Positions 1-45,909 of a stretch of DNA of 64,000 nucleotides are shown in pieces. The notes below the pieces were generated by a model. The model saw only the letters and a program-made list of their open reading frames with translations, did not search any database and was not told where the DNA came from. Position numbers and translations under genes: made by a program. Source of the DNA: Roseomonas sp. GC11 (lineage in GTDB: Bacteria > Pseudomonadota > Alphaproteobacteria > Acetobacterales > Acetobacteraceae). How positions within the stretch are numbered: position 1 is the first letter of the stretch; every line of letters starts with the position of its first letter. The DNA is taken from the NCBI RefSeq assembly GCF_024437745.1, contig NZ_JANFNY010000018.1, positions 1 through 64,000 of the forward strand, read 5' to 3'.

Positions 1-78
1 TTTGGCGTCCCGCCTCAGGCCCGAGGCGGGACGCTTTCTGAAAAAAGTTTTTTGGTTCTTTTTTTCAAAAAAGAACCC
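1..78. terminator. Composite AT/GC intergenic element, copy A (cut by window edge)
   Basis: A 12-bp GC stem (GCGTCCCGCCTC pairing with GAGGCGGGACGC, roughly 5-34) is followed by CTGAAAAAAG, a T-run, and the palindrome GGTTCTTTTTTT-C-AAAAAAGAACC at 54-77. It lies directly past the 3' end of gshB, which is read on the minus strand, so it is placed to terminate gshB transcription. The same modules recur about ten times in the window. The left arm of this copy is missing because the window starts here. Confidence 0.7.
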
Positions 79-9949: not shown

Positions 9950-10992
9950 CAGCGCGACAGCGGCACGAGGGATGCCGCCTCCCAGCCCAGGCGCAGCGCG
10001 GCGCCGCGCGGCGGCGGCGGGCCATCCTCCTCGGCATGGCTGACGCGCAGCAAGGCGCCCCCGGCGGCGCGCACCAGCAGCAGGCTGTCATCGCCGCGGA
10101 AGGCGATATCCTCGACGACGCCGCCGACCGTCTCCGGCCCGCCCGCGGCACGGACAAAAATCCGCTCGGGGCGGAGGGCGAGGGCGGCGGTGCCGGGCGG
10201 CAGCTGCGTGGGCCGCAGCGTGGCGCCAAGGGCGGGGCAGGCGAAGCCGCCCTGGCCATCCGCCTCCCCCTCCAGCACATTGGCGGCGCCGAGGAAGGCG
10301 GCGACGAAGCGCGTCGCCGGCCGGTCATAGACCTCGCGCGGCGGGCCGAGCTGGACGAGGCGCCCCTGCTCCAGCACCGCCACGCGGTCGGCCAGGGCCA
10401 GGGCCTCGTTCTGGTCGTGCGTCACCATGATGAAGGCGGCGCCCGTCTCGCGCTGCAGGGCGCGCAGCTCGAAGCCGGTGCGCTCGCGCAGATTGGCGTC
10501 GAGCGCGCCCAGCGGCTCGTCCAGCAGCAGCAGGCGCGGGCGCTTGACCAGGGCGCGCGCCAGCGCCACGCGCTGCTTCTGCCCGCCCGAGAGGCGCTGT
10601 GGCGCGCGCCCCTCGAAGCCGGAGAGGCCGACCATGGCCAGGGCCTCGGCCACGCGGCGGTCGCGCTCGGCGCGCGGCACGCCGTCGCGCTTCAGGCCAT
10701 AGGCCACGTTGCCCGCCACGGAGAGATGCGGGAACAGCGCGTAGGACTGGAACATCATGTTCAGCGGCCGCAGATGCGGCGGCACGCCGGCGAGGTCCCG
10801 CCCCTCGAAGAGCAGCGCGCCGGAATCGGCGGCCTCGAAACCGGCGATCACCCGCAGCAGGGTGGATTTGCCGGAGCCGGAACCGCCGAGCAGCGTCAGG
10901 AACTCGCCCGCCGCCACATCGAGATCGAGCCCGTCCAGCGCCAGGGTGGAACCGAAGCGCCGGGTCAGGCCCCGCAGGGAGAGCAGCGGCAA
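9949..10992 (-). CDS. potA: Polyamine-type ABC transporter ATP-binding protein
   Basis: Cytoplasmic ATPase of 347 residues. Walker A is GGSGSGKST (36-44), the ABC signature LSGGQKQ lies at 134-140 and Walker B is in RLLLLDEPLGALD (about 153-165). The C-terminal third is a TOBE-type regulatory region, normal for PotA/UgpC-like ATPases. The only start fitting the family is TTG at 10992, an unusual codon. It lies inside the third of three near-identical 14-15 bp repeats that also contain the stop codon of the upstream binding-protein gene, so start-site spacing here could vary with repeat number. Confidence 0.9.
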   Translation of the reverse strand: MPLLSLRGLTRRFGSTLALDGLDLDVAAGEFLTLLGGSGSGKSTLLRVIAGFEAADSGALLFEGRDLAGVPPHLRPLNMMFQSYALFPHLSVAGNVAYGLKRDGVPRAERDRRVAEALAMVGLSGFEGRAPQRLSGGQKQRVALARALVKRPRLLLLDEPLGALDANLRERTGFELRALQRETGAAFIMVTHDQNEALALADRVAVLEQGRLVQLGPPREVYDRPATRFVAAFLGAANVLEGEADGQGGFACPALGATLRPTQLPPGTAALALRPERIFVRAAGGPETVGGVVEDIAFRGDDSLLLVRAAGGALLRVSHAEEDGPPPPRGAALRLGWEAASLVPLSR

Positions 10993-11035
10993 CTCAGCGA
11001 CCCACTCTCAGCGACCCCACTCTCAGCGACCCGCC
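10993..11035 (-). repeat. Triple 14-15 bp repeat at the binding-protein/ATPase junction
   Basis: CTCAGCGACCCACT (10993-11006), CTCAGCGACCCCACT (11007-11021) and CTCAGCGACCCGCC (11022-11035). On the coding strand each copy reads as ...GGGTCGCTGAG. The copy nearest the binding-protein gene contains its TGA stop, and the copy nearest the ATPase gene abuts the TTG start. Duplication of the gene end is the simplest origin. Confidence 0.85.
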
Positions 11036-12138
11036 TTGAAGCGGCTCCAGCCGCGGCTGCGGGCGCGCTCGGCGGCGGGCGCCAGCGCGGTGACGGTGAA
11101 GGTGCGGGCCAGCGCCTCGGAGGTGGGGTAGACATTGGGGTCGTCGCGCACCGCCGCCTCCACCAGCGGGCGGGCCGCCGGCACGGCGTTGGGGTAGCGC
11201 ACCTGGTTGGTGATGCCCGCCATCACATCCGGCTGCAGCAGGAAGTTGATGAAGCGCTGCGCGGCCTCCGGGTTCGGCGCATCGGCCGGGATGGCCAGCA
11301 TGTCGAACCAGAGCTGCGCGCCCTCCTTCGGCTGCACATAGCCCACCTGCACGCCGCGCCCGGCCTCCTTCGCGCGGGCCTGGGCCTGGATGACGTCGCC
11401 GGAATAGGTCAGCACCATGCAGTATTCGCCATTGGCCAGGGCATCCATCAGGTTGCCGCTGGCGGTGATGGCGCGGACATAGGGGCGGATGGCCAGCAGC
11501 GCGTCCTCGGCCGCGCGCAGGTCGGCGGGCTCGGTGCTGTTGGGGTTGCGGCCGAGCCAGCGCAGCACGCTCGGCATCACGTCGATGGCCGAGTCCATCA
11601 CGGCGATGCCGCAGCGGGCGAGGCGCCGCGCATTCTCCGGCTTCAGCAGCAGGTCGAGGCTGTCGGGCGCCACGTCCGGCAGCAGCTCCTTCACCCGGTC
11701 GGTGCGGATGCCGAGGCCGATGGTGCCGTAGAGATAGATGGCGCCGAATTTGTTGCCCGGGTCGCTGCTCTCCACCTGGCGCAGCAGGGCGGGGTCCTGG
11801 TTGCCCCAGTTGGGGATCTGCGCGCGGTCCAGCGGCCGCAGCGCGCCGGCGCGCACCAGGCGGGAGAAGGTCGGCTCGCTGGTCGGCACGATGATGTCGT
11901 AGCCCGAGCGCCCGGCGGAGAGCTTGCCCTCCAGCGTCTCCAGGCTGTCATAGACGTCGTAGCGGATGCGGATGCCGGTCTCGCGCTGGAAGCGGTCCAC
12001 CGCATAGGGGTCGATGTAGTCGGACCAGTTGTAGACGTTCAGCGTCACCGGCTGTTGCGCCTGGACGGGGGCGGAGGCCGGCGCCCCGCCCAGCAGGGCG
12101 GCGGCGAACAGCGAGGTGGCGAGCAGGCGACGGAGCAT
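11023..12138 (-). CDS. potF: Extracellular polyamine-binding protein (PotD/PotF-like)
   Basis: Periplasmic solute-binding subunit of the importer. From the ATG at 12138 the protein starts MLRRLLATSLFAAALL, a clear Sec signal peptide with cleavage near ...APVQAQ. The mature part opens VTLNVYNWSDYIDPYAVDRF, the diagnostic polyamine-binding-protein opening. About 371 residues, matching the family. A GTG at 12174 would extend the N-terminus by 12 charged residues and is less likely. Putrescine specificity (PotF) over spermidine (PotD) is an inference only. Confidence 0.88.
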   Translation of the reverse strand: MLRRLLATSLFAAALLGGAPASAPVQAQQPVTLNVYNWSDYIDPYAVDRFQRETGIRIRYDVYDSLETLEGKLSAGRSGYDIIVPTSEPTFSRLVRAGALRPLDRAQIPNWGNQDPALLRQVESSDPGNKFGAIYLYGTIGLGIRTDRVKELLPDVAPDSLDLLLKPENARRLARCGIAVMDSAIDVMPSVLRWLGRNPNSTEPADLRAAEDALLAIRPYVRAITASGNLMDALANGEYCMVLTYSGDVIQAQARAKEAGRGVQVGYVQPKEGAQLWFDMLAIPADAPNPEAAQRFINFLLQPDVMAGITNQVRYPNAVPAARPLVEAAVRDDPNVYPTSEALARTFTVTALAPAAERARSRGWSRFKAGR

Positions 12139-12328
12139 GCGGGCGGTCCTGCGGCGGTGGGAGGAGGCCTGCACCGTAATCGCAGGGACGTGACGGGTCC
12201 ATTGGTTGCTGAACCCTGAACCCTAGGACTTTATTCTTGACTTTATTCCTATAAGCCCGTATCTCCAAACCCGTCACCGGGCGAATTGCGTCCGCTGATC
12301 CCCCCCTCCCCCGCTCTTATCCGAACCG

Positions 12329-12407: not shown

Positions 12408-13061
12408 ATGCCCTTCGATCCTCGCGGGCTGACCTCGCTCGCCAGCACGGACAGCTTCACCCTCTGGCTTTATGTCACCACCGACACCCGGGCCGCGGTG
12501 CTGGCGCCGGGCTACTTCACGGCCGCCACGGGGCGGCTGCAGCCGGGCCATGTGGTGGTGCTGCAATCGGCGGATTCGCTGACCTTCCTGCCGGTGCGCA
12601 GCAGCGCCACGGTGGGCAACGGCCTGGTGCTCGATGCCTCGGCCGCGCCGCTGCGGCTCAACGCCAATGCCGAGCTCGTGCTCGACATCGCGATGGCCGC
12701 GGTGGCGGCGGCGACGCGCACCGTCGCCCTCGGCACCATCCCCACCGGCCTCTACACGGGGCGCAGCTTCACCGTCTCGGCCAGCGTCAGCGGCCCGGTG
12801 TCGACGCTGGTGTTCAGCATGCTGAACGCCTCCGGCACCGTGGTGCTCGGCCCGACCTCGGTGGCGGTCAGCTCCGGCGGCGCCTCGGTCAGCTTCACGG
12901 CGCCGGCGGCGGGCAGCGGCTACCGCATCCGCGTGGCCGATGCCGATGAGCCGCTGGCCACCCAGACCTCCGCCAGCATCGTGGTGACCGAGCCCTACGC
13001 GCTGCTGACCGAGGCGGGCACCAGCCTGCTGGCCAGCGATGGCGGCGAGATCCTGCTCTGA
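12408..13061 (+). CDS. Phage-like structural protein, first gene of the spike module
   Basis: A 217-residue protein not assigned to a named family. It is rich in Ser/Thr/Ala/Val beta-strand patterns, has an Ig-like middle segment (SFTVSASVSGPVSTLVFSM) and ends EPYALLTEAGTSLLASDGGE, a tail type common in phage accessory structural proteins. The ATG at 12408 has a good ribosome site (CAGGAG nine bases upstream). No signal peptide is visible. It starts a run of five same-strand genes with spike or fibre character; its own role may be an adaptor or decoration protein. Confidence 0.65.
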   Translation: MPFDPRGLTSLASTDSFTLWLYVTTDTRAAVLAPGYFTAATGRLQPGHVVVLQSADSLTFLPVRSSATVGNGLVLDASAAPLRLNANAELVLDIAMAAVAAATRTVALGTIPTGLYTGRSFTVSASVSGPVSTLVFSMLNASGTVVLGPTSVAVSSGGASVSFTAPAAGSGYRIRVADADEPLATQTSASIVVTEPYALLTEAGTSLLASDGGEILL

Positions 13062-13106
13062 CCCAGGGCGCAGCCACCCCTCCCCCCGCGAAGGACTCCC
13101 GCCACC

Positions 13107-15161
13107 ATGTCTGACAAGAAGATTTCCGAACTGAACGCGGCCAGCACGCTGGCCGATACCGACATGACCGCCCTGGTGCAGGGCACCAGCCCGAGCCTGG
13201 AGACGCGCCGCGCCACGCTCGCCCAGCTGCGCAGCGGCGTGCTGACCGAGCGCGCCCTGCATGTGCGCAACTACGGCGCCGTGGGCGATGGCGCGACCGA
13301 CGACACCGCCGCCATCCAGGCCGCCATCGACGCCGCCGCGGCCCAGGGCGGCGGCACCGTGCTGCTCGGCCCCAGGCGCTACGCCATCACCTCGGCCGAG
13401 CTCGTGGTGAAGGAGAATGTCCAGCTCACCGGCCAGCTCCACCAGGGCGGCTGGCGCACCAATGGCGATTTCTCCACCGTCCGCTACGCCCTCATCCTGA
13501 ACAGCAGCCGCACCATCCGCATGCAGCGCAATGCCGGGCTGCACGGCATCGCCATCCTGCGCGCCGGGCTGACGGCGCCCACCTCCCTGCGCGCCGGGCT
13601 GGACGCGGCGGCGGCCTTCGCCGGCACCGCCGTCACCATCGGCGCGGGCGTCGGCGGCAACAGCGCCGGCAATGGCGCCGATACCGTGCTGACCCGCCTG
13701 CTGATCCTCGGCTTCAACTGGGGCATCTACTCGGACGCCAATGCGCGCGTGCGCATCGCCGACGTGCTGGGCGACTGCACCAACGGCCTCTATCTCGGCC
13801 GCTCCTACGACGTCTCGCGCATCAGCGAGGTGAACTGGCATCCGCTCGTCACCACCGCGCGCACCTGGTCCAACACCCGCGTGGCCATCAGCGCCGTGGC
13901 CAATAACGGCTCCGGCCTGTTCCGCATCACCACCGCCAGCGCGCATGGCCTCTCCACCGGCGATCTGATCAACATCGCCGAGGTGCGCACCAGCGGCGCC
14001 CCCACCCTCTATGGCCGCTGGACCGTCACGGCGGTGAGCACCACGCAGCTCGACCTCCAGGGCAGCACCTTCGCCAGCGGCTGGAGCTCGGGCGGCGCCA
14101 TCTACATCAACCCCAACCGCCGCCTCGGCATCGCCTTCGCCGTCAACGACGCCGACATGGCGAGCTTCGAGAACTGCTTCGAATACGGCCACGAGATCGG
14201 CTTCGACATCCAGAACGCCTGCCACTCCTGCCACTTCGACAATATCGGCACGGATGGCTGGGTGGACATGGCCGACCCCAACACCATCGGCATCCGCATC
14301 AACGGCACCTCGCTGCGCACCAAGGTCGTGGGTGGCTTCATCTCCTCCAAGGGCTGCTCGGTCCAGGTCAGCACCACGGGGGCGGAGCTGCACGAGATCA
14401 TCGGCGTCAACGTCACCGGCGGCGCGCGCCGCATCGCCGAGGTGCTGAGCGGCCAGATCTCCTTCACCGCCTGCGACTTCACGGGCGCGCCGGGCACCAG
14501 CAATGTCAGCATCAGCGCCATCCATCTCGGCGGCAGCGCCGGCAATGTGATGGTCAATGGCTGCGACACCACCGCTGTCACCTTCACCGCCGACAGCGCG
14601 GCGGCCATGCAGCGCCTCGTGCTGCTCGGCAACCGCCCTGCGACGGCGGCCACCACCACCCACCGCATCGCCGCCGGGCAGCTCGAACTCGCCACCGTCT
14701 CCGACAGCGCGGCGGTGGAGACGCGCCTCTCCATCTCGACCAGCGGCACGGTGACGCTGACCGGGCCGCTCGTGCTGCCCGCCAACCCGACGGCCAACCT
14801 CCAGGCCGCGCCGAAGCAGTATGTGGACAGCCAGTTCACCAGCCGCGCCCTGGCCAGCCTGGTGCTCTCCGCCGCCACCACCGTCACCTTCGCCAGCCAC
14901 AATGCGCGGCTGCTGATCGCCAATAGCGGCACCACCCTGTCGCTGGCCTGGGCCAATACGGGGGATGGCTTCTCCTGCTCCGTCGTCAACCGCACGGGCA
15001 GCGACATGGCGCTGACGCTCACCGGCTTCACCACCGCGACGCCCGCCAACAGCGACGGCTTCACCAGGATCCGTGCCGGCGGCATCGCCACCCTGCTGGT
15101 CTACTCGCCGGATGGCGGCACCACGCGGATCTGCCACCTCTCGGGCGCGGGGGCCCCCTGA
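13107..15161 (+). CDS. Tail-spike-like protein with pectate-lyase-type beta-helix
   Basis: A 684-residue protein. The N-terminus KKISELNAASTLADTDMTALVQ, followed by TRRATLAQLRS, is the short adaptor found on many phage spikes and fibres. Next comes VRNYGAVGDGATDDTAAIQAA (about 53-73), the hallmark of the pectate-lyase-3/GH28-type right-handed beta-helix used for polysaccharide binding or cleavage. The C-terminal 120 residues are a beta-rich cap. No signal peptide. Expected role: receptor binding or depolymerase on a phage-like particle. Four bases separate it from the next gene. Confidence 0.85.
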   Translation: MSDKKISELNAASTLADTDMTALVQGTSPSLETRRATLAQLRSGVLTERALHVRNYGAVGDGATDDTAAIQAAIDAAAAQGGGTVLLGPRRYAITSAELVVKENVQLTGQLHQGGWRTNGDFSTVRYALILNSSRTIRMQRNAGLHGIAILRAGLTAPTSLRAGLDAAAAFAGTAVTIGAGVGGNSAGNGADTVLTRLLILGFNWGIYSDANARVRIADVLGDCTNGLYLGRSYDVSRISEVNWHPLVTTARTWSNTRVAISAVANNGSGLFRITTASAHGLSTGDLINIAEVRTSGAPTLYGRWTVTAVSTTQLDLQGSTFASGWSSGGAIYINPNRRLGIAFAVNDADMASFENCFEYGHEIGFDIQNACHSCHFDNIGTDGWVDMADPNTIGIRINGTSLRTKVVGGFISSKGCSVQVSTTGAELHEIIGVNVTGGARRIAEVLSGQISFTACDFTGAPGTSNVSISAIHLGGSAGNVMVNGCDTTAVTFTADSAAAMQRLVLLGNRPATAATTTHRIAAGQLELATVSDSAAVETRLSISTSGTVTLTGPLVLPANPTANLQAAPKQYVDSQFTSRALASLVLSAATTVTFASHNARLLIANSGTTLSLAWANTGDGFSCSVVNRTGSDMALTLTGFTTATPANSDGFTRIRAGGIATLLVYSPDGGTTRICHLSGAGAP

Positions 15162-15162
15162 C

Positions 15163-16431
15163 ATGTTCGTCCCCGCCCTGATCCCCGGCGTGCTGTCCAG
15201 CACGACGCCGCTGCGCGTGCTGGGGCCCGGCCATGCCGGGCGCACCGGCACCACGCGCAGCGGCACGGCGCTGGTGCAGGACAGCAGCGGCATCTGGCAG
15301 GCCGCCAGCGCCAACGCGCCCCGCTTCACCGGCAGCGCCCAGCGCCTGCTGGTGGAGGAGGCGCGCACCAACCTGATCCGCAACCCGCGCGCCGAGGGTG
15401 CCGTGGCCGGCACTCCCGGCACAATGCCAACAAATTGGGGGTCTGCCACCAATCCCACCGGGCTGGCGCGCAGCATCGTCGGCACCGGCACGGTGAACGG
15501 GCTGCCCTATATCGACATTCGCCTCTCCGGCACGCTGACGAGCAGCAATGGCAATGCCGCCATGACGTTGGACCTTCAGACTGGCATGCCAATCACAGCA
15601 GCAACAAACTACACATACTCAATTTATGTGGCTCTAATTGCTGGATCCCTCAGCAACGTCCCGAACATCGCCCTTAATTTACTGACCTACCAATCTGATG
15701 GAGTCACACAAGTCGATAACGTTTCCAACAATTTTCACACCGAACTCACATCAGCACTGAAACGTTTTTCTTTGAATTTCACGTCAGGCACGGGAGCAGT
15801 TTTTGTACTGCCGCGGCTGCGACCCGGCCTCGGCAGCAGCGGCTCGGCGGTGGATATCACCCTGCGCATCGCCGCGCCGCAGTTCGAACTGGGCACGGTC
15901 GCCACCAGCCCCGTCCTGCCCACCGCCGGAACCCCGGCCACCGCCAGCCGCGCGGCGGATCTGGTGAGCTGGTCGCCCTCCGGCGGCTTCGGCAGCAGCG
16001 GCACGGTGGTGGTCCAGGCCATGCTGCCCAACGCCGCCGTCTTCGGCGTCCACCAGGGCCTCGTGCAGATCGATGATGGCACCGACAGCAACCGCCTGCT
16101 GATCCGCAACACCTCCGCCGGCAGCACCATCTTCGGCATCATCGACAGCGGCGGCAGCACCCTGGCCAGCCTCTCCGGCGGCAACATGACGGCGGGGACG
16201 GTCTTCCGCGCCGCCTTCGCCTGGGCCCCCGGGGACCAGGCCTTCTGCCTCAATGGCGGCACGGTGCAGACCGCCGCCGCCACCCTGCCCTCGGGCCTGA
16301 CGCGGATGCTGGTGGGGCACGGCGCCACCGGCCTCAACCGCGCGGCCAACGGGGAAATCGCGCTGGTCGACTACCGGCCGGTGCGCGTGCCCAACACCAC
16401 GCTCCAGGCGCTCTCCACCAGCGGCGTCTGA
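15163..16431 (+). CDS. Phage fibre/spike protein with mosaic central domain
   Basis: A 422-residue protein. The motif LLVEEARTNLI (about 62-72) is typical of phage-borne lectin-like proteins, and the C-terminal half (SGTVVVQAML...VFRAAFAWAPGDQAFCLNG) looks like a concanavalin/LamG-type fold. Residues about 132-216 (bases roughly 15560-15810) are encoded by visibly AT-richer DNA with different codon use, and form a CBM-like beta segment. This suggests a swapped binding domain. The gene follows the spike gene immediately and ends before a composite terminator element. Confidence 0.72.
   Translation: MFVPALIPGVLSSTTPLRVLGPGHAGRTGTTRSGTALVQDSSGIWQAASANAPRFTGSAQRLLVEEARTNLIRNPRAEGAVAGTPGTMPTNWGSATNPTGLARSIVGTGTVNGLPYIDIRLSGTLTSSNGNAAMTLDLQTGMPITAATNYTYSIYVALIAGSLSNVPNIALNLLTYQSDGVTQVDNVSNNFHTELTSALKRFSLNFTSGTGAVFVLPRLRPGLGSSGSAVDITLRIAAPQFELGTVATSPVLPTAGTPATASRAADLVSWSPSGGFGSSGTVVVQAMLPNAAVFGVHQGLVQIDDGTDSNRLLIRNTSAGSTIFGIIDSGGSTLASLSGGNMTAGTVFRAAFAWAPGDQAFCLNGGTVQTAAATLPSGLTRMLVGHGATGLNRAANGEIALVDYRPVRVPNTTLQALSTSGV
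15560..15810 (+). other. AT-rich island inside the fibre gene
   Basis: About 250 bp, in frame, with codons such as AAT, TTA, TCA, ATT and ACA that are rare in the flanking genes. Both edges return sharply to GC-rich DNA within the same reading frame. No inverted repeats or transposase are visible at the borders, so it looks like homologous or illegitimate domain exchange rather than an insertion. Confidence 0.7.
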
Positions 16432-16463
16432 CGGCAGACTTCCAGAAAAATTCAGGAAGAAAT

Positions 16464-16583
16464 CTTCTTTTTCTGAAGAAAAAGAAGCAAAAAGACTTTT
16501 TTCAGTTTTTTGTTCTGCTGCAAAAAATAAAGCGCAGCGCCCACTGAAAAAAGTTTTTTGGTTCTTTTTTTCAAAAAAGAACA
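16464..16583. terminator. Composite AT/GC element, copy C
   Basis: Begins with the beta palindrome CTTCTTTTTC-TGAA-GAAAAAGAAG, then CAAAAAGACTTTTTTCAG, a divergent middle containing GCGCAGCGCCCACTG, then GAAAAAAGTTTTTTGG and the alpha palindrome GTTCTTTTTTT-C-AAAAAAGAAC. Here it separates two genes of the same direction inside the spike module, unlike most copies, which separate convergent genes. Confidence 0.65.
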
Positions 16584-16651
16584 CCTCCCGAATCCCTGCT
16601 GGACGATCTCCCGAGCCCTTTTCTCCCTCTCCGGCAAGGAAGCAGGACCTC

Positions 16652-17026
16652 ATGGCCATCCTCAGCGATTATGCCCGCAACATGCTGGCGCGCGCCCTCT
16701 GCGCCCGCGCGCCCTCGCTGCCCAGCACGGTCTTCGTGGCTCTCGGCACCGGCGGCACCACCGCCGCGGGGCTGAGCGGCGAGCCCACCGGCAACGGCTA
16801 TGCCCGCCAGCGCGTCACCTTCACCGGCACCGGGCAGCAGCGCAATGTCGAGACGCTGCGCTTCGTCTTCAGCGCCGCCGCCGGCAGCTTCACCTATCTC
16901 GGCCTCTACGATGCCGCCACCGGCGGCAACCCCCTGGCCTATGGCCCCCTGGCCCAGACCGCCAATGTCACCGGCCCCGGCACCGTGACCATCGCGGCCG
17001 AGGCCATCACCATCAACGCCACCTGA
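16652..17026 (+). CDS. Small phage tail-fibre-type protein
   Basis: A 124-residue protein. The pattern TVFVALGTGG...GEPTGNGYARQRVTF...LRFVFSAAAGSFTYLGLYDA matches a widespread short phage family (VALxT...GxGYARQ...AAxGxxxxxGLYDA) usually annotated as tail fibre or Gp80-like. No signal or membrane segment. A ribosome site (AAGGAAGCAGG) precedes the ATG. Supports the reading of this region as a phage-derived particle module. Confidence 0.7.
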   Translation: MAILSDYARNMLARALCARAPSLPSTVFVALGTGGTTAAGLSGEPTGNGYARQRVTFTGTGQQRNVETLRFVFSAAAGSFTYLGLYDAATGGNPLAYGPLAQTANVTGPGTVTIAAEAITINAT

Positions 17027-17041
17027 AACAGGAGAACAGCC

Positions 17042-17233
17042 ATGTTCGACTGGATCGCCAGCCAGATCCGCCAGCCCAGCACCTGGCGCGGGCTGTTCCT
17101 GCTGCTGACCGCCGGCCTCGGCATCAGCGTCTCGTCGGAGCTCCAGGCGGCGCTGCCCAACCTGGCCATCGCCGCCCTCGGCGTCTGGGAGGCGGTCCGC
17201 AAGGGCGGCAGCTTCGGCGAGCCCGGCGCCTGA
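17042..17233 (+). CDS. Small membrane protein, holin-like
   Basis: A 63-residue protein with an amphipathic N-terminus (MFDWIASQIRQPSTWRG), one hydrophobic stretch LFLLLTAGLGISVSSELQAALPNLAIAALG that could form one or two helices, and a short charged tail. Small proteins of this type often sit at the end of phage structural or lysis modules and are annotated as holins, but no endolysin gene is present here. A strong ribosome site (CAGGAGAA) precedes it. Function is inference. Confidence 0.6.
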   Translation: MFDWIASQIRQPSTWRGLFLLLTAGLGISVSSELQAALPNLAIAALGVWEAVRKGGSFGEPGA

Positions 17234-17418: not shown

Positions 17419-17493
<75 letters not shown>

Positions 17494-29624: not shown

Positions 29625-29710
29625 GGGTTCTTTTTTGAAAAAAAGAACCAAAAAACTTTTTTCAGTCAGCGTCCCGCCTCAGGCCTGAAGCGGGACGCCA
29701 AACTGAAAAA
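29625..29710. terminator. Composite AT/GC element, copy E
   Basis: Alpha palindrome GGGTTCTTTTTTG-AAAAAAAGAACC, then AAAAAACTTTTTTCAG, GC stem GCGTCCCGC...GCGGGACGC, then AAACTGAAAAAA. Fills the gap between the convergent Nudix and PHB depolymerase genes exactly. Confidence 0.8.
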
Positions 29711-45867: not shown

Positions 45868-45909
45868 AGGGTTCTTTTTTGAAAAAAAGAACCAAAAAAC
45901 TTTTCTCAG
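45868..45909. terminator. Composite element, copy I (alpha arm only)
   Basis: GGGTTCTTTTTT-G-AAAAAAAGAACC, then AAAAAACTTTTCTCAG, without a GC stem or beta arm. It lies between two genes of the same direction and follows the membrane-protein stop by about 15 bp. Confidence 0.65.

Follow-up and report, generated by a model that had tools for sequence, protein, structure and literature searches.

Faecalibacterium carries a podovirus-like gene transfer agent (GTA), FpGTA, whose terminase, portal, scaffold and capsid genes lie in one operon, and whose tail fibre, receptor-binding protein, holin and endolysin genes lie in a second operon ~125 kb off (PMC12946183; here and below, citations refer to the accessible part of each paper). 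Recognised GTA families include BaGTA (Bartogtaviriformidae, type II; PMC9662315) and RcGTA (Rhodogtaviriformidae, type I), for which head spikes are described (PMC10218006). None of 62 Acetobacterales and none of 24 Rhodospirillales genomes were reported to carry an RcGTA-like cluster (PMC6821227), and particles with random 10-kb host DNA are described for Azospirillum lipoferum (PMC3899980). Here we examine a module of five phage-like genes, g1-g5, at positions 12408-17233 of a 64,000-nucleotide stretch of Roseomonas sp. GC11 (positions 1-64,000 of NZ_JANFNY010000018.1, assembly GCF_024437745.1; hereafter the window). The module very probably provides the receptor-binding and lysis functions of a domesticated podovirus-type particle encoded on another contig of the same genome, C88.

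A preliminary description of this DNA had listed five same-strand genes for virion-type proteins without adjoining head or packaging genes. Both statements hold, and all five open reading frames (ORFs), on the + strand, are free of internal stops. The 217-amino-acid product of g1 (12408..13061) joins an N-terminal phrog_18004-type virion domain (residues 5-66, E 1.7e-6; a family of unknown function) to a C-terminal domain resembling immunoglobulin (Ig) and carbohydrate-binding-module (CBM) folds. Its AlphaFold model has a mean predicted local distance difference test (pLDDT) value of 83 and a predicted template-modelling score (pTM) of 0.48, and a fold search returned Ig/CBM-like domains only, all for the C-terminal half. 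No match to g1 was found among PDB sequences, by single sequence or by profile, or among 50,697 phage records by tblastn. The 684-amino-acid g2 product (13107..15161) is a spike with a conserved N-terminal anchor, a PF12708 beta-helix and an exchangeable C-terminal part; several tail-spike PHROG matches agree with PF12708, as the earlier reading of a beta-helix tail spike would have it. Five phage records matched g2, over about one tenth of its length.

The fibre protein g3 (15163..16431, 422 amino acids) matches phrog_5939 'tail protein' and carries a GTA head-spike-fibre domain (NCBIfam NF048003 'GTA_spike_fiber', 53 bits, cut-off 36), which also exceeds its cut-off in two of three g3 relatives tested. 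Two PDB matches of g3 at E 0.12-0.17 were taken as chance. The short fibre protein g4 (16652..17026, 124 amino acids), correctly named as such before, proved to be a podophage fibre-I/adaptor protein: it scores 77.6 bits against PF23140 'Podophage GP4 fiber I protein gp80' (cut-off 27), and its profile finds the PDB chain 8jou_a at E 8e-8. Its AlphaFold model (pLDDT 88.6) resembles 8jou_a, 'Fiber I and fiber-tail-adaptor of phage GP4', with a template-modelling (TM) score of 0.85, so that score and fibre-I fold together place g4 in the Gp80 family. It also matches phrog_240 'head protein', and seven phage records matched it at 33-45%. The small hydrophobic g5 product (17042..17233, 63 amino acids) has a weak match only, to the uncharacterised phage family phrog_8494 (E 3e-4), and is called holin-like on account of its size, hydrophobic stretch and position. 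Upstream, the module is flanked by a divergent binding-protein-dependent ABC transporter operon, which we take to be pot.

Two podoviral contigs (L233 and L216) have a g1-type gene directly after the capsid gene, and we therefore searched module-carrying genomes for the T7-like portal PF12236. This portal was found in 25 of 26 such genomes (one, G176, with a weak g4) and in 0 of 14 controls. The preliminary description had advised looking for a GTA or tailocin cluster elsewhere in the genome; a head, packaging and tail cluster of podovirus type was indeed found there, compact and T7-like, at ~48.6-62.7 kb of contig C88. It opens with a divergent S24 repressor, two unknown small genes, portal (PF12236), scaffold (PF05396) and capsid (PF19821). 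Tail tube (PF17212), nozzle (phrog_376) and internal virion protein (phrog_418) follow, then a spike with a T7-tail-fibre N-domain and a pectate-lyase part, and a 108-amino-acid gene. Large terminase (NF033889, T7 type, E 1e-122), a 155-amino-acid gene and a PF07486 SleB-like hydrolase, read as lysin, complete the cluster. Portal, scaffold, tube and fibre N-domain score above their Pfam cut-offs (the fibre by 0.1 bit), as expected of a T7-like podoviral particle; the nozzle was assigned by PHROG. In the GC11 genome, no integrase or replication protein was found among the 14 C88 genes examined or in the module.

Other particle types fit less well. A type I, RcGTA-like particle was rejected, as the GC11 genome yielded no match to the GTA_TIM megatron (PF13547) or the HK97-type portal (PF04860). 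A contractile tailocin was rejected likewise, since no tail sheath (PF04984) was matched in this genome and head genes are present; nine of the 26 module genomes do have a sheath. The HK97 capsid PF05065 occurs in 8 of the 26, including GC11 (one match, on C32, outside the C88 cluster), and the DUF2460 tail gene in two, again including GC11 (C143). Terminase_6N was found in 8 of 45 genomes with a strong g4 homologue against 110 of 155 others (the GC11 match is weak, on contig C157), and another prophage or GTA type may replace the podovirus-type cluster in Terminase_6N genomes without strong g4. A second podovirus-like region of the GC11 genome (contig C157, ~51.5-71.5 kb) is probably an ordinary prophage; it has a portal (E 7.5e-88) and a spike-like match, and its terminase and capsid matches are weak.

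The Terminase_6N counts come from 200 Acetobacteraceae genomes sampled, in which g4 homologues were strong (E <= 1.5e-29) in 45 and weaker in 12 more. The PF12236 portal was found in 39 of the 45 strong-g4 genomes and in 10 of the 155 others (Fisher p 9e-26, relatedness ignored). Where portal and module share a contig, ~39-122 kb separate them (G102, G159, G028, G016).

A more direct tie is given by g1. All 20 regions taken from other families of Alphaproteobacteria hold a g1-type gene in the slot between capsid and tail tube (tblastn found 15 of these genes, the profile all 20), as does Pelagibacter phage Hodr; the alphaproteobacterial genes are as a rule 75-115 amino acids long. The g1 profile found no g1-type gene in the cluster in 29 family regions, and in the 27 regions with both neighbours found the gap between capsid and tail tube measures 67-340 bp. 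The simplest reading would be a move of g1 out of the cluster and into the pot-side module. At the same pot-side site, G176 (locus L163) has a divergent module with a short g1 lacking the Ig domain, other fibres, a weak g4-like gene and dcd-murA; its short g1 is a plausible intermediate.

Module and cluster also seem to share a promoter element. In the window, a promoter-like element of the TAGGA...TTCTTGAC type lies 5' of g1 (12224..12241, +, one copy) and resembles an element of the main cluster, located there between S24 repressor and first gene. We scored this likeness with an 18-bp matrix built from 25 promoters on the S24 side, each time excluding the genome under test; the starting block was picked by eye. 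Across 33 module loci, the gap between g1 and the potD-like gene held, in the direction of g1, the best site of the entire locus in 14, one of the top three in 22 and one of the top ten in 28, and the GC11 site ranks sixth. The 150 column-shuffled matrices reached at most 6, 11 and 19, respectively. Comparison by exact words gave a weak result. Hand-made patterns had been chosen after seeing the data and were not relied on; the matrix and its shuffled controls were used instead. Just 3' of the g1 promoter (12260-12300) lies a GC-rich near-palindrome of the form CGGGCGAATTGCGCCCG, which recurs in most of the potD-g1 gaps inspected.

Divergence is correlated as well. Among 24 genomes, distances of g1 and g4 correlate with those of the capsid (0.59 and 0.58) and the terminase (0.48 and 0.83), and after removal of pot distances correlations of 0.39 (g1-capsid), 0.57 (g1-nozzle) and 0.25 (g1-terminase) are left. 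One could suppose that module and cluster are independent and that common descent within one clade explains why they occur together: each is confined to a clade, and kinship among genomes inflates both co-occurrence and distance correlations. We hold this highly improbable, as the family clusters lack g1 and the module has it, the promoter element is shared, and the g1-capsid and g1-nozzle correlations outlast the removal of pot distances. Together, the C88 cluster, co-occurrence, the g1 slot and the promoter uphold the earlier suggestion that the module equips a domesticated particle encoded elsewhere; the tailocin part of that suggestion is not supported, the particle being of podovirus type and the GC11 genome having no sheath match.

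Several observations weigh against this assignment. Six strong-g4 genomes have no portal match (G075, G087, G106, G115, G124, G177); three of these are <85% complete, and G124 is listed at 100%, G106 at 97% and G115 at 90%. Conversely, ten genomes have a portal and no strong g4, among them G176 with its divergent module at the same pot site, and G142, which holds an unrelated phage. The g4 profile found nothing in family or distant main clusters, and only g1 links the two loci directly. The reverse-complement promoter matrix scores 4, 9 and 24 of the 33 loci (first, top three, top ten). Distances of potD and potA correlate at r 0.22 only (p 0.12), and because they hardly correlate, pot is a poor yardstick of host divergence. 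In the C88 assembly, a run of Ns falls exactly in the gap that separates capsid from tail tube, and the empty g1 slot is seen in relatives, not cleanly in GC11 itself. The position of the cluster is widely, not universally, kept: an mprF-like gene stands beside S24 in 17 of the 26 family regions holding S24, whereas nine show no such gene (G127 none within more than 10 kb), and lysK lies ~100 bp from S24 in G492 and G403, outside the family, and ~2 kb away in nine family regions. Finally, particle, packaged DNA and transfer are inferred from the genes.

The main cluster itself is well kept. In 26 of 28 other family regions, the genes for portal, scaffold, capsid, both tail-tube proteins, internal protein, spike and terminase are arranged as on C88; the exceptions are G047, cut by a contig end, and G142, the unrelated phage. 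Outside the family, 57 of 384 other members of the class that were sampled have the capsid (E < 1e-90, 54-71% identity); they span many families and include genomes as small as 0.9 Mb. Among 20 such distant regions, a terminase lies nearby in 19 and a portal was detected in 11. In a tree of 75 capsids, chromosomal copies stand apart from those of four free phages (Hodr, L233, L216 and Vibrio phage CKB-S2; support 0.94), and family copies form a clade (support 0.978). MT838907, a 5-kb 'phage' fragment of faecal origin, falls among the chromosomal capsids. Order, correlated divergence and family capsid clade together show the vertical inheritance expected of a GTA.

This evidence bears on another idea, in which the main cluster would be a trimmed prophage or satellite that persists through recurrent exchange with podoviruses in circulation, and the module its host-range cargo. 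Clear homologues do occur in free podoviruses, the closest isolated phage capsid (Pelagibacter phage EXVC031P Hodr) being 44.6% identical and phage terminases ~30%. Many copies are labelled as viral contigs in IMG/VR, often of 11.5-13 kb (best 80 of 256 matches; loci L343-L422). The split between chromosomal and free-phage capsids and the family clade nevertheless speak for inheritance over exchange, as does the lack of integrase and replication genes in the C88 cluster, and no match to the capsid was found on 72,556 plasmids searched. We consider this idea very unlikely; viral catalogues may contain the chromosomal cluster as false prophages.

Substitution patterns agree with a maintained particle. 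Ratios of nonsynonymous to synonymous substitution rates (dN/dS), estimated by NG86 against three same-genus genomes (two for g5), are 0.10-0.43 for cluster genes and 0.11-0.38 for host genes; in GC-rich genomes this method tends to give too high a ratio. In the module they are 0.36-0.49 for g1, 0.49-0.53 for g2, 0.58-0.73 for g3, 0.35-0.65 for g4 and 0.43-0.59 for g5. On these estimates, the pattern is that of a constrained particle with faster-evolving receptor parts. In the terminase, the P-loop (R58, G61-T64), D158/D159/E161, D309, E375, D453, D454 and D457 are invariant among the 44-45 of 46 sequences covering each residue (one sequence has one stop); we take these to be the ATPase and nuclease motifs known from terminases in general.

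Gene content and conservation indicate that the particle is probably GTA-like: domesticated, kept by the host and DNA-packaging. Because the C88 cluster lacks replication and integration genes, the packaged DNA would most likely be host DNA, and by analogy we lean, with less confidence, towards a particle that functions as a gene transfer agent. In such a scheme, a cellular signal would act either on the S24 repressor or on the promoter element common to both operons, module and C88 cluster, upon which both would be expressed. The T7-type terminase would fill heads with DNA through the podoviral portal. On the particle, g1 would sit at the capsid and g2-g4 would form spike and fibres, binding or degrading surface polysaccharide of relatives; holin and lysin would then release it.

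The same domesticated podovirus-type particle could alternatively kill relatives or cut polysaccharide, as a headed, PBSX-like device that transfers no DNA. Fast-evolving receptor genes suit a weapon as well as a GTA, and PBSX is discussed as such a case (PMC12946183). Invariance of the terminase motor and nuclease residues is what one expects if packaging matters, though PBSX packages DNA too. We judge a killing device unlikely and continue to favour the GTA-like particle.

The module's own place is conserved among relatives. The order pot genes, g1-g2-g3-g4 is identical in six named Pseudoroseomonas/Roseomonas contigs (L037, L038, L040, L041, L042, L043) and kept in part in L044-L046. The genes 3' of the tRNA-Thr that adjoins the module, which we read as dcd, murA, hisG and hisD, follow in L040, L042 and L043, and dcd-murA in L045. 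Relatives of g5 occur in the closest genomes (L038, L040, L042, L043, L126, L146). ORFs were clustered over 48 loci (40 fetched, seven named and the window; a few named loci duplicate a fetched organism). The g4 cluster covers 45 of these loci, that of g2 42, and those of g1 and the potD-like gene 40 each. The slot between g2 and g4 is variable, holding g3 or a gene of 100-104 amino acids or lacking both; groups of genera also differ in the C-terminal part of g2. Since their order is kept in relatives and their dN/dS is below 1, g1-g5 are genuine genes and not chance ORFs. A gene that follows g4 in 12 loci (c6) was read as a Crp/FNR-type regulator and set aside as a host gene.

In the window, the site is marked by the divergent potD-like gene for an extracellular solute-binding protein (11023..12174, -, PF13416), outside the module. 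On the other side, also outside it, the tRNA-Thr reported in the preliminary description is present (17419..17493, +, ggt anticodon), and its 3' end occurs only once in the window, with no second copy. Conservation of the module and of its junction with the tRNA-Thr, proposed together, must be separated: the module stands beside the pot operon in many genera, and a scan of 39 related loci, of which 29 span ~1.5 kb a side or less, showed a tRNA-Thr in eight. The tRNA-Thr thus looks like a neighbour and not an attachment site.

A decayed prophage end had been offered as the alternative in the same description; it would be that of a recent prophage at the tRNA-Thr. Besides the adjoining tRNA, the gene order lends this some appeal: in three relatives (L037, L147, L204) a small peptide and a lysozyme-like gene follow g4, the L037 copy (10398-11074) matching PF00959, and fibres followed by holin-like and lysozyme genes recall a phage late region. 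In the window genome, the holin-like g5 is kept and no lysozyme was seen before the tRNA-Thr. The comparison with relatives by which that description had itself proposed to decide the matter was made, and went against it: frames are intact and conserved across genera beside one and the same pot-side neighbour, with dN/dS estimates below 1. Broken frames and a strain-specific site were not found, nor was an attachment repeat in the window. We give the decayed end almost no credence, and read g1-g5 as a maintained receptor-binding and lysis module.

A near-palindromic, AT-rich 29-nt repeat has four mismatch-free copies in the window (48-76, 16554-16582, 29627-29655 and 45871-45899), the second of which falls between g3 and g4; one more lies near the main cluster (L323, 17059-17087). 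It is a dispersed repeat of the Roseomonas sp. GC11 genome in otherwise GC-rich DNA.

It may or may not be, with the balance about even, that Alphaproteobacteria hold a second, ancient GTA type derived from a T7/pelagiphage-like podovirus, whose receptor module in Acetobacteraceae moved beside the pot operon and is now an exchangeable targeting cassette. A possible series leads to the detached module, from g1 in the cluster, through a pot-side g1 without Ig domain (G176), to a pot-side g1 with it. The GTAs recognised in Alphaproteobacteria belong to type I (RcGTA-like) or type II (Bartonella); a podovirus-type, chromosome-inherited particle in many more families of the class would fill a gap. 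If true, it would serve orders in which RcGTA-like clusters are reported absent, such as Acetobacterales (PMC6821227), conserved 'prophage' clusters of ~12-13 kb would be explained, and new hosts that can be cultured would allow tests of the long-standing question why GTAs persist. The literature searched, which leaves out most subscription papers and preprints, yielded no account of a podovirus-type GTA among Alphaproteobacteria, and the accessible parts of PMC3245306, PMC13236601 and PMC11909080 hold nothing contrary to such a reading.

Compared with described phages, g4 matches fibre I of podophage GP4 (PDB 8jou, PF23140) by Pfam, profile and fold, with 24% identity in the structural alignment. 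Hodr has a capsid 44.6% identical to the one described here and, like the distant clusters, a g1-type gene after the capsid gene; it is, however, a complete 34-kb phage genome, whereas the cluster described here is short, lacks replication genes and has its receptor module detached. RcGTA has receptor genes with gene numbers far apart (head spike rcc01080, tail fibre rcc00171; PMC10218006), and g3 matches the GTA_spike_fiber domain; RcGTA is long-tailed, unlike the particle proposed for GC11, whose genome lacks GTA_TIM and the HK97-type portal. BaGTA is a domesticated, host-inherited alphaproteobacterial GTA (PMC9662315), as proposed here, and the L037 module lysozyme matches the BaGTA endolysin model weakly, at a score under the cut-off; the capsid here is PF19821 (without NCBIfam match), the portal PF12236 and the terminase of the T7 model. 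FpGTA belongs to another phylum, and particles and packaged host DNA have been shown there (PMC12946183), whereas the present system is known from its genes. By description the two are alike in design, both being podovirus-like and divided between two loci.

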